Assembly (NCBI RefSeq): GCF_008831285.2
Contig: NC_045147.1
Coordinates: 15,602,854 to 15,666,853, forward strand
DNA from: Nymphaea colorata
Taxonomy: Eukaryota; Streptophyta; Magnoliopsida; Nymphaeales; Nymphaeaceae
DNA length: 64,000 bases
Direction of reading: 5' to 3'
Shown: one piece after another, positions 2,559 to 63,400 of the stretch
Layout: the number at the start of each line of letters is the position of its first letter
How positions within the stretch are numbered: position 1 is the first letter of the stretch
Notes under the pieces: model-generated
What the model was told of the DNA's origin: nothing
Database searches by the model: none
What the model saw: the letters and a program-made list of their open reading frames with translations, nothing else
Position numbers and translations under genes: made by a program

Positions 2559-5500
2559 ATGGTATCGTGCAATGAGGACGCATCTCAGGTACTATATGGA
2601 GAAAATAGTACTTTTTTTTTTAAATATTGAGATTCACAAATTGCTTTAGCTACATTACGTGGATGACCTGATGAATTCGAGGAAGGAGTTGGGGGGTTCG
2701 CTAATGAAAAGTTGTTCTGGCGATGAGATGCAGGAACACTGTGCGACATCTAAAACGACTTTACCGTTTGATCGTCCACAGGCACGGGCCAACAGTGTAC
2801 GTGAAATTTTAGATAATCGCTAATCAAGTTTTCATTTGTTTTATATTTCTTTCTTGGTTCTTAATCTCCCGATGTATTATCTGCATTAGCGGAATCTGGG
2901 AATAGTCGAGGTTTGTCATACTCATGTTATGCTTCAAACCTTCAACGTAGTCCTTTCGCTTTATTCTCGAGGGAAATGAATTGGCACTCGATGTCTAGGA
3001 TGTCCTGCGTCAGTTTTGTGGAACATTTGAAATTTAGCATGTAAGGAATGAAAAAGTTCCTGTTGATGGACCGATGTTACTGTGCCTCTATGTGCACTTG
3101 AGTTGCGTGCTTTATTGCTTCGGCTAAATTTATTTTATATAGGCAATAAGTTCTAGCATGGATGACTTATTGCCCATTGGTTGTTGCAGTCCAGCAACAT
3201 TTATTTTCACATAAAATACTGTTGGTGTTTGCTTTGCTTGTTTTATTTTCAGATAGAGATTTCTTATTCAATTCATATTTGGAGGGAAACAGCTTTCCGT
3301 TTTGTGCTGACTTATGTTTCACTTCATTCTGTAGGTCTTCAAGAGTGGACCGCTTTTCATTTCATCCAAAGGTGAGCATAGTTGGATTTTCTCCTTTAGT
3401 TTTGGGTCTCTAGTCTCTACACACGCGTTCCATGTAGTTGGTCACTCGCTAGCATCACGTCCTGGGAGCCATGTAGGTGATATATCTCATGCTTTTAGTG
3501 GTAGCGTTAATGGTATTCTCGAATGGGTGAATGGCCACAGGTCAACAACCTAAAATACTGTTACCTCTATTTGACTTTAAAATTGATAACTATTTGAACT
3601 CCAAGAAAGCTTTCCACTAGAGAGAATATGGTTAACTGCAGCTACTTCTTCTGTTTTAGTATGTAATCTTCATAGAAATGTTCATTATGGTTGGCCTTAA
3701 GCAGCCAATTTAAGATGTTAGCAGATTGTTAGCTATATAGACTAATATATATCTTTTGCATAACATTAGCCCGAAATGTCATCAGATGGGCCACCGTCAT
3801 GGCATAAATTCAAGTTTTCAAGAATATCATGTAAAAATGAGTATGATAAGAGATATAGCATCTCAAAAGTATTAAAGAAGAATATAAAGTAAGTTCAGAA
3901 GTCTCGAGGGAATCAAATCCTCTCGGATAAAAGTCTATAATTTGTGCTAAGATGCAAAATGACAAATACAATATACTTCTCACCGGTGTTGTTAATATCG
4001 TTCCATGCAGTCACATATCAGCTGCATGATGCATTGCAGGGCCAACACAAGTTTATATTATTTTTTGTTCATTTTTAAATCAATTTAGATTATTTTTACC
4101 TTTTTCTTTTTTTTTTTAAGAAAGAAAATGGGGCGATACAGGGAAATACATAAGTGTTGGCTGACGCACAGTGTCAGTGTTCACATTGATATGGTGCTAA
4201 TACCGACACTTACAGTATTGCTTCTCACACAATGTATGCTTAGAAAAACATACATAAGAAGATGGGATAGCCCCTCAACATATACAATAAGGAGAAGAAG
4301 GAGCTTGTCATTGGTTTCATTAGAAGACATTGTTTTTGAGATGAGTAAATAGCCATACAAAACCTTTACTATTAGGTTTACAAAAAAAAAAAAAAAGGAA
4401 AATAAAAGAAAAAGAAAGGAACATGTGAAAGGGCCAAAAAGGTACTACTTGATGATTAGTGGCTATATTTTCTCGGAACTGCTTTCTATAGCATTATTTT
4501 TTCTCACCTGATGTTAGAAATTCTTTAGCATATCTTCAGTGTACAACTTTTTTTTGGATACCTTATTCTGAAATTTTAAGTACTAATAGAAGTTCAGGAG
4601 ATGCAATATGGAAAAAAGAAGATAATTCTATGCTATTCTTGAGAGTTTGTCACAAATATGCTGCTATTGAATGTTTCTTCTGATCAATTGTATAGGGATA
4701 GGATGGACTTCCTGGAAGAAGCGCTGGTTTATCCTAACTCGAACATCATTAGTATTCTTTCGAAGTGACCCTGTAAGGATTTTCTATGTTCCTAATTTGC
4801 TGATGTGGTTGGCCTGTCTTGATTATATCCAATCTAAGTTCCTGGCTCTGACTCAAGAGCATAAATTTGCTATAAGAAATATCTTGCACATACTACAACC
4901 GTATTCTATATTTCTTCTCTTTAACAGTTGGAACATCTCGTTTGTGTATAATTGATCACACTCAAGATGGTTGAAACTGCTCAACTAGAAAGAGGAAAAA
5001 TTGCTTCATACACAAGCTTCTTTTCTTTTAGTCCATCTCTTAAAGTTAAAACAGTTCAACTTGACTTCTTTGCAGGTTTAAGTCTTTGCATAATCTCATT
5101 CTCTTATACTTAGTTATCGGTCCATGTACACATTGGATCCATTGACAGTCTTAACCCTTCTGGACTTGGAGCTTAATAGAAGAGCATTACCACTCAGAAC
5201 ACTAATGGATAGTAATTAAGCTTTCTTTTTTTAAATCGAACGTGTGGGGATCTTCTTTTTTTTCCCGAGAATTTCTTCTTTCTTCACAATGCTTGGGAAT
5301 TATTTTCCATAATGTAATCCTGGTAACCAGCTTGCTTCTATCAGATTTTTGGTGCTTGGAAAATGTTTTAAGGAATTCCATAGTCTTGATGATATCTTCT
5401 TTTGGTGGAAAAGTTACCATGTTCTTTTATGTTGACCATGTAAAAAGGGCAGCTCTGGAGTTGATGCATTAATTTTAATTTTTGGAGTTTTTCTCGTTAT

Positions 5501-26520: not shown

Positions 26521-27492
26521 TCAGAAATCCTTGAGCAGCTTTCTGACCTGCTCCAGAGTGACGAAGAGCATGACGGTGAAGGGCCCCTGCCTGGTGATGG
26601 TGGGTATGAAGCCCTTGTAGAGCGCCATCGGCCCCTCTGCTCTGATCGTCTTCAACGCGCAGTCCAGAGGCCCGGCGTATGGCGGCGCCTCCCCCGGCAC
26701 CACCTTCATGTTCATCACCCTCGTCTTGATCACATCCACCGGGTTCGAGGCCACGGCCGCCACGATCCCGGCGGCGAAGCTCGACGTGACGTGGGTGCCC
26801 AGCCCATCCCTCATCAGCCCGTTCCCAATGATCGCCTCCTTCGCGGAGTCGTACGTTGCCAGCTGCGACGCCGTCACCAGCATCGCTCTCTGGATCGTCA
26901 TCGACGAACCTCGCCACAGGCTCGTCACTCCTTCATTCTTCGCCATCCGGGAGATGGCGTTCCCCACGCTCGTGTAGTTCCGCCGCTGCTCCACCGGCAA
27001 CCGGCCGTCCGCCTGCATCCTCACCATGGCCACGTCGGCCGGGTTGCCTACAGCCGCCCCGATCCCGCCGGCCGCGAGCCCGCCCGCGATCTTCTGGACC
27101 AGGGTCAGGTTCCTGGTGGCTGGGTCGGAGTATTTCTCCTTGTAGATGTCGTACAGACCCATCCTGGTGGTGGAGTAGAGGGCTTGCCGCAGAACGGTGG
27201 CGGAGACGCCGTTAAGGAGCGCGGCAGGACCCTCTGTTCTTATGATCTTGACTCCGACGGAGATCGGTCCGACGCGGGGTGGCGGCGGAGGCGGGGGTGG
27301 GATGGTGGCAGTGGAGACGGAGGGGGAAGGGCCAGCGAAGGCCACAGCGGGGCGGAGGGTGGAGGCGGCGGCGGCGGCGGCAGCCTCGCCCTGTAGTTGC
27401 ATACGGACCTTGATGAGATCCAAAGGATGGGTGGAGACGCCGGCGACGACGGCGGCGATGCCTCCTTCAACGAAACTTTTGACACCACCCAT
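26521..27492 (-). CDS. DIC: Mitochondrial dicarboxylate carrier (DIC family)
   Basis: Inner-membrane carrier of the SLC25 family. Plant DICs exchange malate, oxaloacetate, succinate, phosphate and sulfate across the inner mitochondrial membrane. The single coding exon gives 323 residues from MGGVKSFVEGG, the usual family start. Three carrier repeats carry HPLDLIK (residues 22-28), NPADVAMVRMQ and NPVDVIKTR. The basic residue of the second repeat's signature is Met, as in other plant DICs. The segment after the first signature is long: a seven-Ala run near 37-43 and an eight-Pro run near 65-72 lie in the loop that faces the matrix. The end is LFVTLEQVRKLLKDF. The frame stays open 53 codons upstream of the chosen start, but that part (MKPPHSTLSPP...) does not resemble the family and lies in a GA/CT-rich leader. 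The coding region is GC-rich, unlike the flanks. Closest class: Arabidopsis DIC1-3; I cannot assign which. Confidence 0.95.
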   Translation of the reverse strand: MGGVKSFVEGGIAAVVAGVSTHPLDLIKVRMQLQGEAAAAAAASTLRPAVAFAGPSPSVSTATIPPPPPPPPRVGPISVGVKIIRTEGPAALLNGVSATVLRQALYSTTRMGLYDIYKEKYSDPATRNLTLVQKIAGGLAAGGIGAAVGNPADVAMVRMQADGRLPVEQRRNYTSVGNAISRMAKNEGVTSLWRGSSMTIQRAMLVTASQLATYDSAKEAIIGNGLMRDGLGTHVTSSFAAGIVAAVASNPVDVIKTRVMNMKVVPGEAPPYAGPLDCALKTIRAEGPMALYKGFIPTITRQGPFTVMLFVTLEQVRKLLKDF

Positions 27493-27890
27493 TTTTGTTA
27501 CCAACCGATGATCCGGCAATAAATCCCAATCCGGCCACACACAGGCACAAATCCACTGGTTGGGCTCTCTCTCTCTGTCGCCCTCTCTGTGTTTGAGGCC
27601 CAGCTGAAGAGGAAGAGAAGGTGGGCTCAGAGTTGAGTGGGGCGGTTTCACATGAGAGAGAAGGTGATAATGAGGAGGAAGACGCCAAAACTAGCAGGAG
27701 TGGGTGCAGTTCATCTCATCCCACTGGAGGCCATGAAATCAGAACGAAGAGCAGAGGCAGACAACCTCCAAATTCCAATCCAACAACTAGGCCTCTCTCC
27801 CAGACATGTATCCGCTGCTTAAATCTGCAGAAAGCGAGATCTGCAGAGAGAAAGAGGGAGAGAGAGAGAGCGCTAGCTGCTGTTGAAGGC
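27493..27890 (-). promoter_or_regulatory. 5' leader of DIC, GA/CT-rich
   Basis: Between the start codon and the TATA box the minus strand is rich in CT repeats (plus-strand GAGA at 27841-27868 and CTCTCT at 27567-27577). Such leaders are common in plant housekeeping genes. The transcription start itself cannot be located; about 27880 is inferred from the TATA position. Confidence 0.5.
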
Positions 27891-42341: not shown

Positions 42342-42398
42342 CGAGAGATGTCTGGTTTTTTTCCGTGAGAGTCGAGATCGTCGACCTTTCTGTTAACG

Positions 42399-43715
42399 AT
42401 GGCGGCCGTCTTCTTAACGTTGGTCGTCCTCCTCCACCTCTTCTCCGGCACCGTCACCGCCTCCGACCCGTGTGCCACCTCTTCCCCTGCCGCCGACGGC
42501 TCCACTACCCTCACCCTCCTTCACATCAACTCCAAATGCTCCCCCTTCGCGTTCACCGCCGACCCCTCCGCCTCCCTTCTCGACTCCGTCCTCCAAATGG
42601 CCTCCAACGACGCCTTTCGCTTCGCCGCCATCGCCGGCGGTAGGCGCTCCATTCCGGTGGCCTCCGGCCTCCACGTCACCAACTCCGGGAACTACGTCGT
42701 GAGGGTGAAGGTGGGCACCCCCGGGCAGCTCATGTTCATGGTCCTCGACACCAGCAACGACGCTACGTGGGTTCCCAACACCGGCTGCTCCGGCTGCCCG
42801 ACCATCGCTTCGTCCTTCTTCTTCCCCAACCACTCCACCACCTTCAGCCCGCTCGGCTGCCGCGCTCCTGAGTGCTCCCGCCTCAGAACCTCCTACTGCG
42901 CCGGCCGCGGCGCCTGTTTCTTCAACCAGACGTACGGCGGCAACTCCAACTTCTCCGCCGCGCTCTACAAGGACACCCTCCGCCTCGCCCTCGACGTGAT
43001 CCCGGGGTTCGCGTTCGGAGGCGTGTTGTCGGCCGTCGGTAGCGGGCTGCCGCCCCAGGGCCTCCTCGGCCTCGGCCGCGGCCCGCTCTCCCTCCTTTCC
43101 CAGACGTGGCCGCTCTACCACGGGACCTTCTCCTACTGCCTCCCCAGCTTCCGATCCTACAACTTTTCCGGTTCGCTCCTTCTCGGTCCGGTCGGGCAGC
43201 CCGCGTTGATGCGCACCACGCCACTCCTGACCAACCCCCACCGCCCTTCCCTCTACTACGTCAACCTCACCGGCGTGAGCGTCGGCAGGAAGCTCGTCGC
43301 TTCCGCGCCGCTGCTGCCGGTGTTCGACCCCAACACAGGAGCCGGAACGGTGGTGGATTCCGGCACCGTGATAACCCGGTTCGTGGAGCCGGTGTACACG
43401 GCCATTAAGAACGAGTTCAGGAGGAGAATGAGGGGCCCCGTGACGAGCCTGGGGGCGTTCGATACGTGCTTCACGTCGCCGGGGGTGGCGCCGACAGTGA
43501 CGCTGCACTTCCAGGGACTGGACTTGACGTTGGCGGCAGACAACGTGATGATCCACAGCTCGTCCGAGCCGCTGGCCTGCCTGGCCATGGCCGCCGCGCC
43601 GGACAACGTCAACTCCGTGGTCAACGTCATCGCCAACCTGCAGCAGCAGAACCATCGGGTCGTCATCGACCTTGCCAACTCCAGGGTCGGCTTCTCTCGG
43701 GAGCTCTGTAGCTAG
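42399..43715 (+). CDS. AED3: AED3-like aspartic protease (pepsin family A1), secreted
   Basis: Pepsin-type aspartic protease, 438 residues in one exon, closest in sequence to Arabidopsis AED3 (apoplastic, EDS1-dependent; part of systemic immunity). A signal peptide covers about residues 1-22 (MAAVFLTLVVLLHLFSGTVT). The first catalytic motif is DTSN, with Asp117 in VLDTSNDATWVP; the usual Gly is Asn, as in AED3. The second is DSGT at Asp320 (VVDSGTVITRF). Conserved blocks include GLLGLGRGPLSLLSQ, FSYCLPSFRSYNFSGSLLLG, PSLYYVNLTGVSVG and NVIANLQQQNHRVVIDLANS. Cysteines are in the usual pairs, with several N-glycosylation sequons (for example NQT, NLT, NFS). The coding region is strongly GC-rich and lies in AT-rich surroundings. 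This explains a long open frame on the opposite strand. The start is fixed by the signal peptide and the close TATA box. Confidence 0.95.
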   Translation: MAAVFLTLVVLLHLFSGTVTASDPCATSSPAADGSTTLTLLHINSKCSPFAFTADPSASLLDSVLQMASNDAFRFAAIAGGRRSIPVASGLHVTNSGNYVVRVKVGTPGQLMFMVLDTSNDATWVPNTGCSGCPTIASSFFFPNHSTTFSPLGCRAPECSRLRTSYCAGRGACFFNQTYGGNSNFSAALYKDTLRLALDVIPGFAFGGVLSAVGSGLPPQGLLGLGRGPLSLLSQTWPLYHGTFSYCLPSFRSYNFSGSLLLGPVGQPALMRTTPLLTNPHRPSLYYVNLTGVSVGRKLVASAPLLPVFDPNTGAGTVVDSGTVITRFVEPVYTAIKNEFRRRMRGPVTSLGAFDTCFTSPGVAPTVTLHFQGLDLTLAADNVMIHSSSEPLACLAMAAAPDNVNSVVNVIANLQQQNHRVVIDLANSRVGFSRELCS

Positions 43716-48286: not shown

Positions 48287-48504
48287 GCCATCGAGCAACT
48301 AACAAAGTTGTTTAATACATAACCGATACGGTCCAATATATATCGGCCGAATGCATATGTTGGAGGTTTCTCATACGAGTTGGAAACCGATACTTTTTCA
48401 TTGACTCGGGCCTCAGGCTCGAATGGATAGCCCTCCCCTTGCAAGCAGAGTTGCAGAAAATCGGCGAGCAAACGAGAGGGAGAGGGAGAGGGAGAGGGTG
48501 GGGG

Positions 48505-49309
48505 ATGGCAGCAGCTATCGGTGGTAGGGTGATGATGGCGGCAAGAAGCGCACACATCAACCCTGACCGCCGTTGTTTCTTGAGCCGGCGGTGGCCGGAC
48601 TCTTCCAATCAGGGACATTTGGCCGCTTCCTTCTCGAGCAACGGGAGTTCGAAACCCCAGAGGAAGCTGGTTCTCTACACCAAACCAGGATGCTGTCTGT
48701 GCGAAGGTCTCAAAGAGAAGCTGGATTTGGTCCTCAAATTGGGAGCCCCTGACTCTCTCGATGACGTCGAACTGCAGGTTCTGTTCTTTTGATTTCACTT
48801 TCAGTGGTGAGGTAGTGATCCATTTCTGCTTCTTTTGACTGGGTTTTCTATGAAATTTGTGGCCTTAGACTAGAGATATTTTGAGCAATCCAGAATGGGA
48901 GAGACGCTATCAGTATGAGATCCCTGTGTTGGCGAGGGTCCTTCCTGACGGCACAGAGGTGAGTTCTTGGCATTCATTCCTCTGATCTTTAGGGTTTCCC
49001 CCCCCTTTGCCCATCTTTGCTTCCGTCACATCCATCTCTTCTTGCTCGGTCTACATGTGTCTGAGTTTGAAAGACTAGTATCTGAGATCCCCACGTCGAG
49101 GATCTCAATGTGAACAGTTTCTTGAATCATGGTATTTGAGATTTGCTAGAATCTCAGATAAGTGGCTTTCAAGCTGGTTTTTTTATGGACTCTGTCATAT
49201 CCGGAAGCCGAATTATAACTTAATGTGGTGGCAGGAGAACCTTCCGAGATTATCGCCTCGTCTTGGAGTGGAGATGATCAAGAAGAAACTTGTAGCTGCC
49301 CTGCAATAA
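48505..49309 (+). CDS. Glutaredoxin-like protein (DUF836 / YDR286C-type thioredoxin fold)
   Basis: Small thioredoxin-fold protein of the glutaredoxin-like DUF836 family; its exact redox partner is unknown. Three exons join in phase: 48505-48777, 48869-48958, 49235-49309, giving 145 residues. The core starts LVLYTKPGCCLCEGLKEKL with the CxxC motif at Cys63-Cys66. The cis-proline lies in YEIPVLARV (Pro110), and the end is EMIKKKLVAALQ. The first 50 residues are Ser/Arg/Ala-rich and lack acidic clusters, which would suit an organelle transit peptide; this is inference. An in-frame ATG at 48439 would add 22 residues in a purine-rich repeat (GRGRGRG). I chose 48505 because that extension looks like leader sequence. 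Confidence 0.85.
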
Positions 49310-51453: not shown

Positions 51454-54400
51454 ATGGTGCATCACTTCCCTTCCTTTCTCGGTAGCAAATCCCTATAGGA
51501 GAATTAAGGGTTTTTTTGTATTGCTTGTATTTTTCCTTGGTAATCCAAATTTTTGTTCCTTCCTCTCGTCTTTGTTCTTTCTCTTTGTTCTCATTTCTCC
51601 TGTTCATGTTTGTTGTTTGAGATCATGATGATTTGGTGGAATTTGTGGTTTGGTTAATAGGTAGTTATATAGCTTCCTGAGTCGTTGCCTTGATGCGATA
51701 AGAAAATGTCATTTATCGCCAATTTGGCGTCTGATGATTTTTATTGCGTTCCTTTCGTTTTCGGATGCTCTATTTTTGGTGTTTCTTCGGATTTGCAGAG
51801 CGACTCTAAAACTTCCTTCCTCCGATTGTCTATTTGACTGCTTCTTGAAGGGGTTAATGTTTATTATTGAAGGATGAGGTAACCGCGGTCTTTGTCTTTT
51901 TGTGTTAGATTTGTTTCTATGCGTAAGAAGAATGGTGCGGAAGAGGGTCGTGTTTAGGGTCTCTTGAACAATGGGACGTTGGTTCTTTACCTGAAAGTCT
52001 GCTACTATTTGTCCGCAGAGTCGATTCTTTTCTGTTTTTGGACGCAGCCTCTAAAGGGCATCCTAGGAACGTTTTCTGTAGCCAAACTAGATAGGTCATA
52101 GAACTGAGTTGGTATTTTTGGTCGGTCGTTCATGCTAATTTTGATGGAAACGGTGCCAAATTTACAATGGAGGTTCTATTGCACAGGATAATAAAACGTT
52201 TAGTACTATTTGATCAATTTGCTAGTGACTCCGTTCATTTTCAAGGTTGGTTATTTTGAAAGTGTTAGTGTGAACAAAGCTTTTTTGGGGGTAGGAGAGG
52301 CCTTCTTAGGAACTTATTCCATGGATGGATTTCCTAAATCCATCTTGCTTGTCACTTTGGATCTTCAAGAGATCGCTAGTTTGAAGGGGAGGTGTGCTTT
52401 ATTTTTTCTTCATAGGAAGATGTAAAATTTGAAGGGTTTATCCCTATGGTAGCATGAAAGAAGTAGAAGAGAATTTTGAAGGCTACATCCCTGTAGTAGC
52501 ATCAATAAGTGTAATGGAAAAAATGGAATAATCAATAGAAAAATCACAAATCCATAAGTTATGCTCATTTTCTGGATTAGCAGAAAAAATAGTTTACTTT
52601 TATTTTTGTTTTTAAGTTCTTTAGTTATCTTAGACTTACCTAGTAAAGATCTTCAACATTATAGAGTCATGTTAAATTGTGGAAAGTCTAAAAATAATAA
52701 AGTTCATGTAAAAGGATTCATTCAAAGGATCTAATTGGCTTGATTGGACCAAAGCATGTCAATGTAGTTGGACATTGTCCGGGTGGGTAGGTGGAGGAAA
52801 AAGGCACTCTCATACCATGCAAACTCTTCTTTCTTTGTTCTTTGTCTATGGCAATGAGATAGATATTTGCTTTGCACATTTTGGGGAAGGTTGGTGAATT
52901 TAATCATTATGGTGGAGGGCCCTATGAAGTTTCAGTTTACTTGTCTCATAAGTAACTCGAGAAGTATGACTAATGTTGTTAATTGATGTTTGTATATGTT
53001 CATGTTTGCGAGCAATATATTCTTATTTTGAACTACTAGAACATATCCACAGACCACAGTAGGTGAAACTTTGTCCATTCTTATATTCTCATGTGGTTGC
53101 TATGCATCTTGATCATGTATTATGCTGCAGCATTTAAAACTCGGCCAAGTCAACCAAGTTCAGTCTGGTGATTGGTTCTCAACCGGGGTCAAAAAAATGG
53201 AAAAACCAAGAAATTGACATGACTCAGCTGTGTTATGGGATGACCAGGCTGTCATTCAAGTTTGGGCTGAGTCACAGGTTGGTTTAATTGATTACATCTA
53301 TTTGTACAGTACAAGTATATATATTAGTCAAACAAACTATGTAAATGATATTAGAAACTATATATGTGTATGCATACTCTATCAGATTTTCACTGTATTG
53401 CACATAAAAGGTGCATATACATATAGTAATGACATAAGGTTGTTAATATGTTACTAAAATTTGCATTTGTGTATATGTATGTATGTATGTACATATAGAG
53501 AGAGGGACACACACATATTATTATACATATTATATATAATATATCGATGTTCTAATGAATTAAAAACACCATTTGATACATCAAAACCAGGCCGAGTCAC
53601 TGAGTTGACCTGGCGATTCATGAGTCAATTCATTCTGAGTGGAGTCCTAAGTCACTTTTTAAAACCTTGCTTGTGGAGAGAATACCTAACTTTGCTAGTG
53701 TCACCTTTCATGGTTTTGCTTTCTTCTCAGTGGGGAAACTTTCATATGGGTTCTTCCTCGACCCCTGGAGTGTCTCCTGCTTTATGTTGATGAAGGGGAT
53801 CGCCACATAGGCGCACAAAAGTTGCATGGGAGGCGGCATTCCTTTCTTAAGATTGGGACTATCTATTGTACCCTTAGAGGTCTTTTGGACAATGTTGTAA
53901 AACGCGTATCGTAAGCCGTATCGGTCGGGCTTTAAGATACGCCGTATCGTAATGTATCGTAATGTATCGTACCCGTATCGTAAATTTTTAAAAAATAATA
54001 ATAATAATTCAGAAAAATTAAAAAAAAATCGGAAAATTCATAAAAAATAAGAAAAAATTAAAAATAATAAATTCTTCATATAAAACATGTTTTAGTCTTT
54101 TAGATAATGATAGACTTATTATTTTGCTAAATGTTATAAACTTACGCGTTCACGGTTCATCATTCATACTTCATAGACATCAAAATTCATAACAATATCT
54201 TCTTTTTCATCTTCATCTTCATGGTAAAAAACCCCTTTCCTCCCAATGGGAATCAGCCACCCATGCACAAATCCATGGTTTAATAGATGATTTCACTGTG
54301 AAAATCGATGATTTCACAATGGAAATCGATGATTTCCCTCTAAGGCGGTACAATCTATAGATTAGAAATGAAGAAGGGGTGGGTTTTTGTAAAAAAACTC

Positions 54401-57400
54401 AAAAAAATGGGGTTCAAGCCCCTTTTTTAGAAATCAGCCCGTATCGTACGATACGGGCTGTATCGCACCGTATCGTACGATACGGGCTGTATCGCATCGT
54501 ATCGTACGATACGGAGGCCCGTATCGCACGTATCGTACGATACAGGTACGATACACCCCCCATTTACGATACGGGGGGTGTATCGTATCGTATTTTGTAA
54601 ACGATACGATATGACCCCGTATCGTACGATACGTACAACACTGCTTTTGGATGGATATAGTTATTATCAACTTCCTGGGGAAATGGACTGTCAAACATTG
54701 TTTGAAAGATTGAAGGCAAAAGTAGTGGCCAGATATCGGGAACTTAATTTGGGGAGCATGCTTGGTTGTGATTATTCTAACTTTTTTTTCTGTAGCTTGT
54801 TTGACAATCATGAATACCTTTGTCCACACTGCTTTGCCTTCTTGCTCTTGAAGATCTTTAACTAGCTTCAGCCATTATCTTTAGGATTTTTCAGTGACAT
54901 GAACTTTCAATTTTTACTTCAATTATCTTCACTGTTTGTTAAGTATCTACACTTCATTTTTTTCCATCTCAGCATTTGGAATTTTTGCCATTAATTCATT
55001 TTCTCTTAGTATATAAGTCATTAAATAATTATCTGAATTATCTAATCAACAGGCTGCAAAGATTCTTGCAAACTTGATTGTGATGGGATCTGGAATTTTA
55101 GCCCGGGCTTTAGTCCAAGCCTATCGTCAAGCACTTACAAGTAAGTTTAGCAAAACATTTTGTTTCAATTTCAGCTTTGACAGGATGTTGTGAAATTTAT
55201 GTCTCATCTTTTTCTCGTGATAAGGAGATTATAATTAATATCCCTCATTGATGCACGTATCCCACTTTTTTATCAAAAAGTATGCAATGTTGTTTTGGTA
55301 GGCCTCCCTCTGTGTAGCTTTGTGTATATGCCTATGAAATAGGAAATACGTTGACTAGCTATGTAGTTAAAAGTGCGAGACTGCTAGTCAGGACTAGCAG
55401 CAGTTGCCAAAAGGAGCTTAGGCAGCAACTACTCGAGGCCTAGTCGGTCTTATTTTAGACATAAAACATGTCGGAAATATGAAAGAAGAAGAAAAATAGG
55501 AAACAAGGAAAAGGTGGGGGTTTTTGAAATTCCTCCATCTGAACAATATGTTGGAAGTTAGAATCATTTTTTTTAGAATTAACAAAATTAAAAACATTTT
55601 TTTTTTGAGGCATCTGGGTTGTCTCGGTGTAGGCCTTAGGGTTCCACCAGTGCCTAGACATGTTTTTGACTATATAGGTGAATGTTATAATGAAGGTGGC
55701 CTTAGTCTCTTAAATACATCATGTATGCTTTACTCCAAATATGAACACAATTCATATCCCATTGATACTTGGAGGTTCTGCAGACATAGATGATTCATGT
55801 ATGTGGAAATTAGGAGGCTCTTTTTCACGTGACAGGCTTACGAACATGAGCATTTTCATATTTGTTGGCAGAAATGATATATTCTGTCATTTTCAATTTC
55901 ACTTTCAGGGTATAACATATGAAAATCTAGTAACACCATTAAATAGAAAATAAGTCAATTGACCTTGCTTTTGATTTTATAAATGTGATATGGTAAGTGT
56001 ACCCATCCTTTTGTGGTGTGAGGCATGTGAATGATTTTTTCAAACATGGTACACAGACTTATTCTACAGATGGAAATTATTTTTCCAGTGAAGATGTTCA
56101 CTGAAATGGGAAATGTGCTTTATTGCATAGTTTCATGTGGTAAACCTTGTTCGTAAAAAGCTTGTGACTTAGAAACAAGCTAGATTGTGGTATTTACTAA
56201 GAAATTAACAATATTTCATCAGCTTGTATGATAAGGCTCCTTTAGAGTATCTATACTTAGATGCCAGAAGAAAGTATTTCTTTTGCTTGTGAAGTTTGAC
56301 CTGAATGCCCAAGTTCTTTCTTTTCCTTCTGGAAGACTTTGATTTACCTGTTTGGTGGCATTCCTATGAGGCAGTTGTCTAGGTCTGTAATGATAAGCAG
56401 GTGGATCAAGGCACTCCTTGGTTATGTCAATTTATTTCATGATCATGTGCGTAGAGAGGACTTGAGCTTTGTGATAAGGCTTCTATGTTATCGCTTCATT
56501 TGAGCTTTTGATAAGCTTTCGGTGTTACGGCTTCTTTCCTCTTGTACTGCTTTTCAATGATTCTTTTAATGGAACCTACACTTTTGAAATTTTGTGTTTT
56601 CTACTCTCAAAATCTCAACCCAAGCCTTTTTTTTTTAATGATGTTGCAGATGCCTCTAAGTCTGGTGTTGCCCAAGAAACCATACAGAACACAATCCGTC
56701 GGGGAAGTAAAGCCATGGGAGAGCAAGAAGCAAGACAGATATTGGGTGTCACAGAACAGTCAACGTGGGATGAAATTGTCAAGGTCAGTATCTTAAGCAC
56801 TTGGATTTTGCAATTTATTTAACCACCAAAAATTTGGGTTTCTGTTGACCAGGGTTTTCCTTTACTTGCCCAAATAAGTAGTTAGACCCTGGAACCTGTC
56901 TGGTTCATAAGATCTAAAATGAATGCAAACCTGACCATGTGATTTAAGGGGTATCTAGGGCATAGTTTCTCTGGAAAAATGCATGTAAACTACGTGATTC
57001 TTGTGATCTAGTTATTCTGAAATAAGTAGGGGTTAGTCATATGTTTCTTGTGTGGCACAAACTGTGTTCACGGAAGCAGTTAAAGTGTTAGACACAACAA
57101 AGAGAGTGAGGGATGTGCTTCACATATTTATATGCTATATCAAGTGGTTATGAATTGCTTAAAGTATTAAAACAGTAAACACATGTAAGTTTAGTTACGA
57201 AAGACATGCATATGAGCAATTGAGCATATTGAAAAGTGATAACCAATAAATAAACTTAAATATAACCGGGCAATTTGAACCTTAAATAAAATGATTATGT
57301 CAACAGTGTTTCAATGCTCACAATAAAAATAATTAGATCAATCATCATTATAAAATCAATCGCCAAAGTGTAGTTTCATGTTTTTCATAGGCCTTCCTAT

Positions 57401-60400
57401 CTGACCAAGTGCATTATTCTTGGATGTCCATTTATCTGTGAAATGCATCTTGCATCTACATGTGAAGGACCAATATCTCAATGTAACCTAATTCACTCTC
57501 ATACAATTTAAATGTTGGTGAAAGGATTTCGATGACATACTGCAGCTCATGCTGTACATGAAGTTATATATTCCACCTTTCATCTATAATGCATTGTATG
57601 GAAATATATGACTTCTTTCTTCCTTTCAAATAGTCTGCGCTAGCCTCTTTTTCTTTATCCATAGTTTCATAAAGATGACTAGTGGCAGGACTGTCTTCAT
57701 GAAGAACCAACCCAAGGTCCTTCACTAGGGCTATAGTGATTTTGAGCAACTTTATATGTGATTCTCAAAAGTGATGTAATATCTATGACTTTTTTTTTGG
57801 GTACATGGGTATAAGTAATTTGTAAGAACATTTGTCTTACTGTATTTATGTTGTTCACAGCATGTCATACTATCAAAATCTCAGTTGCATGTTTGGTTTG
57901 TGCGTGGAAAATCAACTCACCAACATTTGTGTACTTTTCATCAAACTTAATAACTAAGCATGTTTACAACTAAACGTCATGATTTTCTACCAGCATTTGG
58001 TGGCCTCTTTCATCTCATTTCTGTTGCCAAAGTCTTCAAGCATAAGTATTATGCAATAGAGTATGCACAGCCCAGAACAATAAATCAAACTCACACATCA
58101 ACGTTCTGACAGAATCTTATGATTGCTGCATTATCTTTGGTGCATTGCACCATCTTTTGATAGCCACTTCTCACAAAATGGTCAGAATCCTTTTTTTAGT
58201 GTTTGACAAGTCCTTGGATTTCAGGAAATCCATTTGCCATAAAACTGTACCTTGTACATTCCAACTTAATCACTGCATCATGTTTTGTCTTGGTTAACTG
58301 TTAATGGCATTATTACCAAAAATTTTCCTGTTAATTGATGAAGTCGAGACATTTGACACCCCATTCCCTGTAGCAGTAAATTATCCGTCATAGCTTGAAA
58401 TGGTCTGCATTAAAATTTCCTGCATTAAAGAATTAAGCATTTTTCAACTGCCATTTTTATTTGCTCAATGAAATGTTTGGTGATTGTCAACATGAATTTT
58501 AGTCTGTGAACTTGGAAGCAAAAGTAGGAGGGAAAATTCTCCTAACTGGTATGAGGTTGTGAGATTTGCATCCTCCATTTTGATCCATACAGCTGCTTAA
58601 GTTTGTACTATCAATTACTTCCATGATCCTTATCCTAATCCTGAAGCCCACTTATATGAACTGTATACCCATCTTAACCTGTTACACAGCGGTACGGTTG
58701 TTACAGTTCACTCCCACATAAGACGCTCTGTGTCCTCACGGTGCATCTAGTTCCCAATTCTGATACCTTCCCATGTTAGACAACAAATAAATGATATGTG
58801 CTACTTGATTACAGCAATTTAGAATCTCATGGCTGCTTCAAGAGGAGCAGATTTCTGTTATGTAAATGACTCTGAAGGACCTAACCTTGGTTAAAAAAAA
58901 ACATTTGACAAGTTAGACCCAATTCCTCACAACACTTATAAAGTTATATACTTCAAACACTTGATTATTTTTTATCCAATCTTGGGATTGCTGCTAACTA
59001 AGATCATTGACATATCTGAACTAACTCAATACTCCTTCAACCAAGCACTTTCTACTGCATTTTCCCAGTAGAGATCCCAAGGAGAATTGCAGCATAGAAA
59101 GGTCAACTGGGAATTATAAGAAAAAATGGAGCTGTTTTATGCCTACTAAACCTGCAAAATTTAATAAATTAATGTTATTTTTGGCTTGCTCATACTAGTT
59201 TGGCTTCAGGATGTTGTTTGTTTTGTTTGCTTTCTTAGTCAGTTTATTTCTGTATGCAACTAGAGCATGTGTCTCTTCCCGATCATTATGTTGATGTCTA
59301 TCATGACAGCATATGCTATAACATCTGATCTGTCAATGTTGCTCCACGTACTTTGCAACAACAACATGGAGTTGGCTACCCTGCTTTGAAACTCTTGAAT
59401 TCACAAGAATCCTTCAAAAATTTATGGAGTCAGTATGCATGCTTCCTCTTAAACTGAAAGATGAGATTTTATAGAACATTGATGCAGCCTTGTCACCCTA
59501 TAGGCACAAACTAGATGTGAATAGGCATTTACCACAAGACCTTGACCAGGTCCCCTTCTCTAAGTTAGATGACCATATGGTATCGTTGTGAGTTGGATTC
59601 TCTCTGTTCCTCACTCCAAGTATATTCCGTAAGCATTTTATGGTCATGCAAGTCTTGGGATTTGGGGGCCGTTTGATGGCTGGAAACCATGGAAACGGAA
59701 AAAAAATTTCAGAAATATATTTCTGGAATTGAGAAATAGGAAAAAAATTTCCATATTTCCAAAACAAGCTTGTGTTTGTTAAGTAAGAAATATTTTTCCG
59801 GAAAGAAATTTTGTCGTTTGGTAGAAATGGAAGAAGGGAAGGAAAGGGAAGGGAAGGGAAGGAGGAGGAGGAGGAAGAAGAAGGGAAGGGAAGGGAAGGG
59901 AAGGAGGGAGGAGGAAGAAGGGAAGGGAAGGGAAGGGAAGGAGGAGGAAGAAGGGAAGGGAAAGGAAGGAGGGAGGATTTTGGGGAAGAGGCGTCAGGCA
60001 GTGCCATCGGCGGCGGCAGGGGCGGTGCCATCGGCGGCCGCGGGGGACGTGGGGAGGTGCCCTCGCGTGCCCTCCTCCCCTTCTTCCCCTCTTCTCCCTC
60101 TTCCCCTTCTTCCCCTCGCGTGCCCTCTTCTCCCTCTTCCCCTTCTTCCCCTTCTTCCCCTCTTCTCCTTCCCCTCGCGTGCCTCTTCCCCTCTTCTCCC
60201 TCTTCCCCTTCTTCCCTTCTTCCCCTCTTCTCCTTCCCCTAGTGCCCTCTTCCCCTCTTCTCCCTCTTCTCCCTCTTCCCCTTCTTCCCTTCTTCCCCTC
60301 TTCTCCTTCCCTCCTCGTGCCCTCCTCCCCTTCTTCCCCTCTTCCCTCTTCTCCCTCTTCCCCTTCTTCCCCTCTTCCCCTCTTCTCCTTCCCTCCTCAC

Positions 60401-63400
60401 CGTGCCCTCCTCCCCTTCTTTCTCCTCCATCCTTCCCTTCCTCCTCCTCCTCCCTCTTTCCCTTCTTCCTCCTTCTTCCTCCTCCCTCCTTCCCTTCCTC
60501 CTCCTCCTTCCTCCTCCCTCCTTCCTTCCCTTCCTCCTCTTCCTTCCTCCTCCCTCCTTCCCTTCCTCCTCCTCCCTCCTTCCTTCCCTTCCTCCTCCAA
60601 CGGTCAAAAAAATATTTCTTGAAAATTTTTTCCACCCCTCTGGCTGGAAAAATTTTTCCAGAAATATTTTGCCGTTTCCACTTTTAACGGTAAAAAAAAA
60701 ATTTCTAAGTTTGATGAGAAGGAAAAATTTTAAAATTTTGAAATTTTTTTCCACTGCTACAGTAAATTTCCAGGGCATCAAACGGCCCCTTGAGGTTTTT
60801 CATGAAAAAAAAAAGTTTCACAAACCTAGACACCAGACCATTAGCACATGAAGCCCTCCACTGATTGGATGCTTCCTCATTTGGCCTTCTTACTGACAAT
60901 CTCAGAAAGGAGCCTCTAGCTCTTATGCCCATACAAGGCGCTTTGCTTTTGGGGAAACATATGCAAAATAAAGTCATTATGTCTTTCCCTTGCGGGGTAA
61001 GAAATGATTTTATCAACAAATACTTTCTAATTGTGACAAATCGCTGGAAGATATTTTATCCACAGCACCCTGAAGGGAGAGCAAGTTCTTCAACTACGGT
61101 GGTGACTGGTGACTATATTTACAAGTCTGCCTAGAGGAGCATGTGCTTCTCCTGCTAAGTTTTCACCAACTTAGACCTACCTCTAGCGTCATGGAGTTGT
61201 ATGTCTGCCTAGAGGAGCGTGTGCTTTCTCTGATAAATTTGCCACCAACTTAGCCCAATGTCTAGCATCATGGAGTTGTTCCATTGCTAGTTATGCCATA
61301 ACTGGAAGTTTTTCCTGGCTTCTTCATTTATATCATTCCTGGCTTCAATATTGTACTGTATTTTGGCTTCTTTTGGCTGAATTTTCGATCTTTGACTTCT
61401 GTTATTAAGCTTACACTGGCGTGGTTATGATATTAAATGAGCTTTCTATGGCAGCTGTGGCTGCCTTGGCCTCTATATGTATCCTCTCGGCAAGGAGCTT
61501 TTTCACATTTCCCTCTGTAATGATCAAAAGGGTTCTAGGTTTATCAGTTCAGTCATATGCGTGATGGTCCTGATGCATATGGTCAATTTGATAGTCTGTT
61601 CAACACCTGTATTATCATGTGCTTCACATCAAATTTACTACTTATGAGTGAATGAAGGCAAAAAAAAAGAACTGCATGAACTCTTCATGTTTGAACAACT
61701 TTTTTTCTCTGATTATGCATTTATAAGATTGAAACTGGCCATTTGCTCAAGCATGCTCATGCACTTTTGGAAGGCATAAAACTGTGTGGCAGCAAAAACT
61801 ATTCGATAGCAGTTCAATGTCACCCTAGCTGGGGTGGGAGTGCTCAAAAGTTCTGCTTTTAAATAGCTGATATGCTATGGGCCCTGTAGTTCTGCAACAT
61901 CAGGTTTTGTCCGCTGGTTGCTAGACATACCACTGCTTGTGGGGTATGAGGCTGGTAGCTTGTTGTTTGCTTGTCGTTTGCTTGTCGTTCTATCTTCACC
62001 TTATACCACTGATTATTTTCACATTTATGATTCATAATTATGATGGAATCTTTCCATCACCCAAAGCTTTGAAAATACACCTTCCCTTTCCGACCTGTTT
62101 GCGTCGAACACCATATTCTGCCAATGTTTTGATGTCAGCTTGAACTTGTTCAAACCCATTTAACTGAGAAGCCAGTGATGTCGTAAATCTTGTGCACAAC
62201 TTGAAACCAGCAGTGCCTCCATGAGCTCTTCAGATTTGGATAGTTAGGTGATTCCAATATGCTCACCATATTGGCTTTGGACATGATGCTTTCGCTATCC
62301 TATGGTCATTCCTGTGATGGTTTGCTGGGAAAAAAACTGAATGTTAGGCTTTAGTTGTTCCATGAACTTGCTTTTCTTTGGTGTTTTGCAATATAGTAGA
62401 CTTGTCTAAGAAGGATTCTGCCATTGATGAGTTGCCTTCTTCAGCTTGCCATGTTTGGTTGGTTGGTAATGTAAAGAACTCTTGTTCAAGTAGGATTTGA
62501 CTGTGGATGTGCTGCCTTCTGATGCTTACCTGTTAGTTGATCAGAAGATTGACCGCCGCATCCTGCATAGATCTTGCACCATCTTTGCATGCCTCTGCAT
62601 CATTTATCTATGAGATAGTGATATATTATTCATTTGCATGGGACACTACCTATAGTTGAGCTGCTTTTTGTCAAGCATTTGCAAGGCCATCATTCTCCTG
62701 CCATTGTATCTCTGGCTAATTTATCACAACCGTCTTCATTTCAAGCAAGGGAATGGGAGACTAGTTCTTATTTGCCATATTGACATATTTCCATGGAATG
62801 CACACCCTTGAGCATCCAACGGAACTCCTCCGGAAAACCGTTGTATGTACACTGTCTACTTGATGCAGAAGCAAGGCAGTCCTGTTGGAAGGTTTAAGCA
62901 ACCTAGCTGTTAGCATGTGCTTAAATTTTTTATTCTTTGGTTCGGTCTTGCTATAGTCATCTATGTGGCCATCATACATGAGGTTAAAACAATTTAGCTC
63001 CAATTCAGCTCTATTACCAGTTAAGTGATCTTATTTATGTTGATTGAGATGACGCACGTCTACCTGCACAATACAGGATGGTCCTCTAGAAGTTTTAAGC
63101 TCCTCCCTACAAATTGATCCGTTAGCCTACTTAGATCTGTGGCACCAATTGCTGTGTCTGAATTCCAAACCTGATGCCTCTTTCTATGGACAAGGAATAG
63201 GGTTGTAGAACTTGTAAAGGTTGAGGTGCATCCTTTATCACATCCTAGCTTGGTGCTTCTGGGTGTTGATTGTGATTGAAGAGCAGCCTGATGCAGCATT
63301 TACCCATCAATTTTTTGGACTGCTGCATTTATATTAAAAGTATGAAGTTTTAGTTGAAAGGAATGCTGGCAGTGATAGTTTCTTTGATGTGGACCTTTTA

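Follow-up and report, generated by a model that had tools for sequence, protein, structure and literature searches.

In a stretch of 64,000 nucleotides from the water lily Nymphaea colorata (RefSeq assembly GCF_008831285.2, contig NC_045147.1, positions 15,602,854 to 15,666,853 of the forward strand; hereafter the window, in whose numbering positions are given unless another contig is named), there lies a 754-bp element that is best read as a non-autonomous hAT transposon. It would be a Ds-like element of the size of a miniature inverted-repeat transposable element (MITE), derived by internal deletion from a longer relative and served in trans by a transposase that binds its terminal repeats and its GTATCG words; we put the probability of this reading as a whole at roughly 0.86. 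Non-autonomous hAT deletion derivatives with subterminal repeats are a kind of element already known, and what is new to us is the family, its word GTATCG, and the marked asymmetry between a nearly one-way row of that word at one end and a palindromic array at the other. The portions of the open-licence literature that were covered hold no recognised description of this family, in a search that was not aimed at the motif itself.

Boundaries of the element

The element stands between two exact copies of the 8-bp sequence CTTTTGGA. Its tips, as read on the + strand, are CAATGTTGTA and TACAACACTG, and the reverse complement of the latter, CAGTGTTGTA, is identical to CAATGTTGTA at nine of ten bases. 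The terminal inverted repeats of hAT elements begin with C/T A A/G N G, a consensus that is satisfied by both of the 5-bp tips found here, CAATG and CAGTG. Across the whole window there are 6569 pairs of hAT-like 5-bp ends lying 200 to 3000 bp apart, and this pair alone is flanked by identical 8-mers; that scan, together with the duplications at other copies, rules out chance as the source of the CTTTTGGA flanks. An earlier note on this DNA, made from the letters alone, had drawn the same limits from the exact duplication and the CARTGTTGTA ends, and those limits stand. The longest stop-to-stop frames of the element, of 144 and 146 amino acids, extend into the flanking DNA.

Copies in the genome

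When the genome to which the window belongs (407.8 Mb in 783 contigs) was searched, 1418 candidates came up at first look, and the 40 best-scoring places among them, the window copy included, were scored and read with their flanks, a sample that leans towards the query. The earlier note had looked to copies with other boundaries as grounds for giving up its limits; copies elsewhere keep the same ones: the match begins at query base 9 in 32 of the 40 places and ends at 762-766 in 23, which puts it on the predicted tips or no more than a few bases off, and duplications flank the copies. A simple end pattern delimited both ends in 32 of the 40, and it is to these 32 end-bearing copies that the counts below refer; 25 of them have one possible end pair and seven have two, in which case the pair with the better duplication was kept. 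The remaining places (L017, L019, L021, L024, L026, L029, L039 and L040) are those in which the pattern missed at least one end. By eye, L019, L029 and L039 among them are seen to have an exact 8-bp duplication next to tips that are intact or mutated, and they are left outside the counts; in L026 a second CAATGTTGTA end near position 997, directly behind the right array, suggests a nested or tandem insertion.

The 8-bp duplication is exact in 27 of the 32 copies, matches at seven of eight positions in four, and at five in one. When left flanks were paired with the right flanks of different copies, none of 992 combinations agreed at all eight positions and two agreed at seven, and when the boundaries were shifted, 0 or 1 of 32 duplications remained exact. 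Among the 27 exact duplications, 16 have T as their second base and 17 have A as their seventh, which fits the hAT target-site preference nTnnnnAn.

In length the copies range from 640 to 829 bp, and a strict form of the end pattern, CARTGTTGTANNNNNCGTATCG, has 285 exact matches in the genome against none for a reversed-pattern control; this figure does not give the number of copies, since at least two of the 100 matches listed are right ends, beginning with CAGTG. These matches and the 40 scored places rule out a single-copy oddity, and elements so short, non-coding, dispersed and alike in size have the character of a MITE family. The median divergence from the consensus is 1.5% and nearest neighbours are 93.8-99.4% identical, which, on a sample leaning towards the query, points to fairly recent movement of the family. 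By the bases that follow the terminal repeat the copies form two groups, of 19 and 13.

Two unlike ends

The density of self-complementary words, which the earlier note had called extraordinary, is borne out by comparison with 1000 dinucleotide shuffles of the element: GTATCG/CGATAC occurs 24 times against a mean of 0.7 and a maximum of 4, CGTATCG (both strands) 17 times against a maximum of 2, and the full 16-bp palindrome CGTATCGTACGATACG four times against none. In the window copy the GTATCG words are confined to the outermost 94 bp on the left and 205 bp on the right, with none mid-element. Counted copy by copy, as the earlier note had proposed, the motif number runs from 10 to 29, and the arrangement is the same in all 32 copies: GTATCG is on the + strand only in the left 110 bp (one to six per copy), on both strands in the right 260 bp (3 to 13 and 3 to 10 per copy), and absent between. 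A longer partner element, described below, has, on its two strands, 5 and 0 of the words near one tip and 9 and 9 near the opposite tip, with none between. The one-way rule is not absolute, since the 5-bp core GTATC has one reversed left-end site in 28 of the 32 copies and in the partner.

One might suppose that a transposon captured the words as a plain expansion of a satellite or microsatellite, an idea suggested by the 29-bp tandem unit at 54439-54543 in the right array and by the variation among copies in both length and motif number. It is difficult to square with motifs that are restricted to two ends and similarly arranged in every end-bearing copy and in the partner. Stand-alone clusters (at least four words in 150 bp) were absent from twenty 10-kb stretches of contigs 1-4, a weak test that covers about 0.05% of the genome. 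Those 200 kb are too few to expect a family copy, at 285 matches in 408 Mb, and three weak alignments within them were not counted as copies. Small as it is, the sample makes a plain satellite unlikely, and we regard the capture of one as highly improbable.

A longer partner element

The earlier note had suggested a search for an autonomous partner with the same ends, and an element that is autonomous-type by its sequence was found on contig 4, 3651 bp long, with these ends and exact GGCGGCAC duplications. It was located by matching, by eye, 100 listed end-pattern places (of the 285; contigs 1 to part of 4) against 150 listed hAT domains, one pair being 6.65 kb apart. The genome holds at least 150 hAT dimerisation domains over the cut-off (150 scored of 1113 candidates), several of them in frames of 650-760 codons, and the partner's own domain is not among the 150 listed. 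The hAT domain of the 6.65-kb pair, at C4:7607579-7607839, lies beyond the element in a different hAT gene (minus strand, L070:1057-2400), which has 448 codons with RNase-H fold and dimerisation domains and lies about 2 kb from the partner. No array stands beside nine long-frame hAT transposase loci of the 150 listed, in the one flank of about 1.4-1.6 kb taken for each; one has a single GTATCG.

The main frame of the partner, of 662 codons, matches DUF659 (PF04937, E 8.9e-59) and lies on the strand opposite to the MITE's orientation in the window, and a separate downstream frame has the hAT dimerisation region (PF05699, Dimer_Tnp_hAT, E 1.2e-13); the split between the two is probably an intron. 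Stretches reading SDGW, TDNA and CERNW were noted by eye, without a family alignment, in a check for DDE residues, and PDB sequences gave no match to the main frame at E up to 1. What lies between these ends is, in two separate frames, a transposase with a C-terminal dimerisation region, and this DUF659 partner, taken with the CARTG ends and the exact duplications at 27 of 32 copies, upholds the earlier note's assignment of the element to hAT. The gene begins at the palindromic end, and going by its orientation the window-left end is the predicted 3′ end of the element and the window-right end its 5′ end.

Taken as its reverse complement, the window element aligns to partner positions 51-419 at 70% identity and 3382-3651 at 82%, with the coding part missing, and two other MITE copies align over the two end regions at 73-74% and 83-85%. 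In all three copies, at 70-85% identity, both ends are thus common to an autonomous-type element whose coding part has been deleted, as in a Ds-like derivative, and because the ends align and the coding part is absent, the MITE is best read as an internal-deletion derivative of a partner-type element.

Proposed mechanism and its weak points

The likeliest course of events would be an internal deletion of about 2.9-3.0 kb from an element like the 3.65-kb DUF659-type hAT on contig 4, both complete ends being kept. A transposase supplied in trans would then bind the terminal CARTGTTGTA repeats, and its BED finger would bind the GTATCG words, so that the transposase would be loaded on to single sites, nearly all facing one way, at the window-left (3′) end and on to paired, palindromic ones at the window-right (5′) end. 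This unlike arrangement would distinguish the two ends, and the deletion derivative would be cut and pasted, leaving 8-bp target duplications.

By analogy with Ac and Hermes, the GTATCG words are most likely subterminal transposase-binding repeats. The maize Ac transposase binds AAACGG repeats in subterminal regions, according to the available part of PMC3260210, and the sections at hand of PMC10368747 describe Hermes BED domains that bind subterminal repeats, with cooperative binding on a quasi-palindromic pair, the arrangement of the repeats being unlike at the two ends. More broadly, hAT-derived BED proteins often favour CGG or CGC words, and for four that are encoded by hAT elements the motif fits the subterminal regions of the element concerned (excerpts of PMC8097297). 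It is because BED domains and Ac bind subterminal repeats in these systems that we read the GTATCG words as sites of this family's transposase.

In favour of this account, motif bases have a lower rate of departure from the consensus than the rest of the subterminal bases, both at the left end (14/925 against 78/2051) and at the right (57/2835 against 124/3180; mid-element, 361/13499), in counts made on related copies that were picked for similarity to the query, with two subfamilies pooled. Several points weigh against the account. Gaps are commoner in motif columns than in their neighbours (left 3.6% against 1.4%, right 16.4% against 8.8%), so it is the letters that are conserved and not the number of units, and the perfect 16-bp palindrome is missing in 3 of 32 copies. 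The BED-finger match (PF02892) in the partner's 662-codon frame reaches E 0.0025 and 18.2 bits, under the Pfam cut-off of 20.6. The same frame ends in a 131-bp tandem duplication of 96% identity, which, with the dimerisation domain in a separate frame, suggests that this copy of the partner may be inactive, and since it is only 70-74% identical to the three MITE copies over the 5′ part, it is a relative rather than the direct parent. In Hermes, moreover, right-end repeats are without BED contact, and extra transposases further inside are unlikely to matter (PMC10368747, in the sections at hand), while in maize some Ds1 elements that lack the hexamer still move and the tested Ds-like elements that have it did not (PMC3260210, available part); a wealth of words, then, does not have to translate into a wealth of working sites.

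A bolder proposal is that the ends carry a two-part code. The 3′ end would hold single BED sites in a nearly one-way row, and the palindromic array of the 5′ end would have been amplified; standing immediately upstream of the transposase gene, this array could give transpososome assembly its polarity and also put the gene's promoter under the control of its own product, and deletion derivatives would inherit the code. We regard this proposal as possible and yet doubtful, because the one-way rule fails for the 5-bp core in 28 of 32 copies and because Hermes, in the portion of its description drawn on here, uses only part of its repeats.

Folding and CpG content

The hairpin potential raised in the earlier note is strong in silico at the right end of the window copy (z -12.0 against shuffles) and missing at the left (z -0.5). 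The same holds across the 32 copies, with 30 shuffles each: right-end z has a median of -9.5 (range -16.2 to -5.3) and beats the shuffles in every copy, and left-end z has a median of -1.0 (range -2.6 to 0.7). Such folding would be expected if the palindromic array were kept for single-strand hairpins, as a help in replication or gap repair or as resistance to end loss, instead of as duplex binding sites, and a role of this type is reported to have been proposed for Tam3, whose end regions and gap repair are the subject of Yamashita (1999), a paper listed among the references of PMC2222647. The left end, with the same words, has no folding signal, however, and palindromic binding sites would fold as a by-product in any case, so folding does not single out this explanation, which we consider unlikely.

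The many CpG sites pointed out in the earlier note are evident in an observed/expected ratio of 2.03 for the element (50 CpG in 754 bp) against 0.59 for the window. This richness, and transitions in the 32 copies that reach 3.6% at CpG against 2.4% at other C/G and 1.2% at A/T, are what would favour the array being mainly a methylation or small-RNA target through which the family or the host gene is silenced. The excess of transitions at CpG is small, though, and the words depart from the consensus less than their surroundings; that silencing is their main business seems to us rather improbable. Possibly the hairpin and methylation roles are both additions to transposase binding, inseparable from it on present evidence.

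With its hundreds of marked ends, and with a candidate transposase gene in the same genome, the family offers a tractable system for learning how hAT transposases distinguish ends. The asymmetry is visible in the sequence itself, in 32 end-bearing copies and one partner, and with a water lily as host the family belongs to an early-branching flowering plant.

Genomic context

About 400 bp downstream of the element stands an exon of PAM16 (TIM16; Table 1), and the element is probably in intron 1 or the 5′ region of that gene. Joined to a further exon at 56650-56783, this exon matches part of PAM16 at E 2.7e-06 and 27.9 bits, short of the 30.3 cut-off; alone it gives E 0.0092, and the further exon alone gives no match. 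Elsewhere in the window, positions 59667-60790 have the ends GGGGGCCGTTTGATGGC and CATCAAACGGCCCC, an interior of GA/CT-rich tandem repeats, and flanks TTGGGATTT and TTGAGGTTT that agree by eye at 7 of 9 bases; this is a probable second DNA transposon, perhaps Mutator-like. The ordinary genes of the window include a mitochondrial carrier (26521-27687, minus strand), an aspartyl protease-like gene (42369-43712, plus strand) and a glutaredoxin-like gene (48316-48789, plus strand).

Table 1. Positions of the element, its parts, the partner element and the adjoining exon.
Feature	Position	Strand	Remarks
Target-site duplication, left copy, CTTTTGGA	53882-53889	.	Exact match to right copy
Non-autonomous hAT element (probable), 754 bp	53890-54643	+	Between exact 8-bp CTTTTGGA duplications
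Left terminal inverted repeat, CAATGTTGTA	53890-53899	+	
Left subterminal array	53905-53983	+	GTATCG x6, all on + strand; spacings 12, 26, 10, 10, 11 bp; one reversed 5-bp core GATAC among them
Right subterminal array	54439-54634	.	GTATCG 10 + 8 on the two strands; four perfect palindromes CGTATCGTACGATACG; 29-bp tandem unit; strong predicted hairpins
Right terminal inverted repeat, CAGTGTTGTA on - strand	54634-54643	-	
Target-site duplication, right copy, CTTTTGGA	54644-54651	.	
Partner element, 3651 bp	L070:4443-8093 = C4:7610842-7614492		Same ends; exact GGCGGCAC duplications
PAM16 (TIM16) exon	55053-55140	+	Downstream of the element, not part of it

Comparison with known systems

The Ac/Ds elements of maize make 8-bp target duplications. 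As here, their deletion derivatives keep both ends and depend on an autonomous element, and they have a short subterminal word that the transposase binds (PMC3260210, available part), a binding that for GTATCG is proposed by analogy. The present family differs from Ac/Ds in its word, GTATCG and not AAACGG, in having a palindromic array at one end only, and in the DUF659 domain that dominates its partner. Tam3 is likewise a hAT element, and it is for Tam3 that a role of the end regions in gap repair is reported. BniHAT-1 and BniHAT-2 of Brassica nigra are, in the part of PMC7385995 at hand, high-copy hAT MITE families, likened to ours by copy number and class alone. Hermes, a hAT element of the house fly, has palindromic pairs and an unlike arrangement at its two ends, as the water lily element does, and binding of the repeats by BED domains is a feature of Hermes (PMC10368747, sections at hand). 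The two differ in motif, density and host, and where the left end of Hermes has, in those sections, two palindromic pairs, the window element has a long palindromic array.

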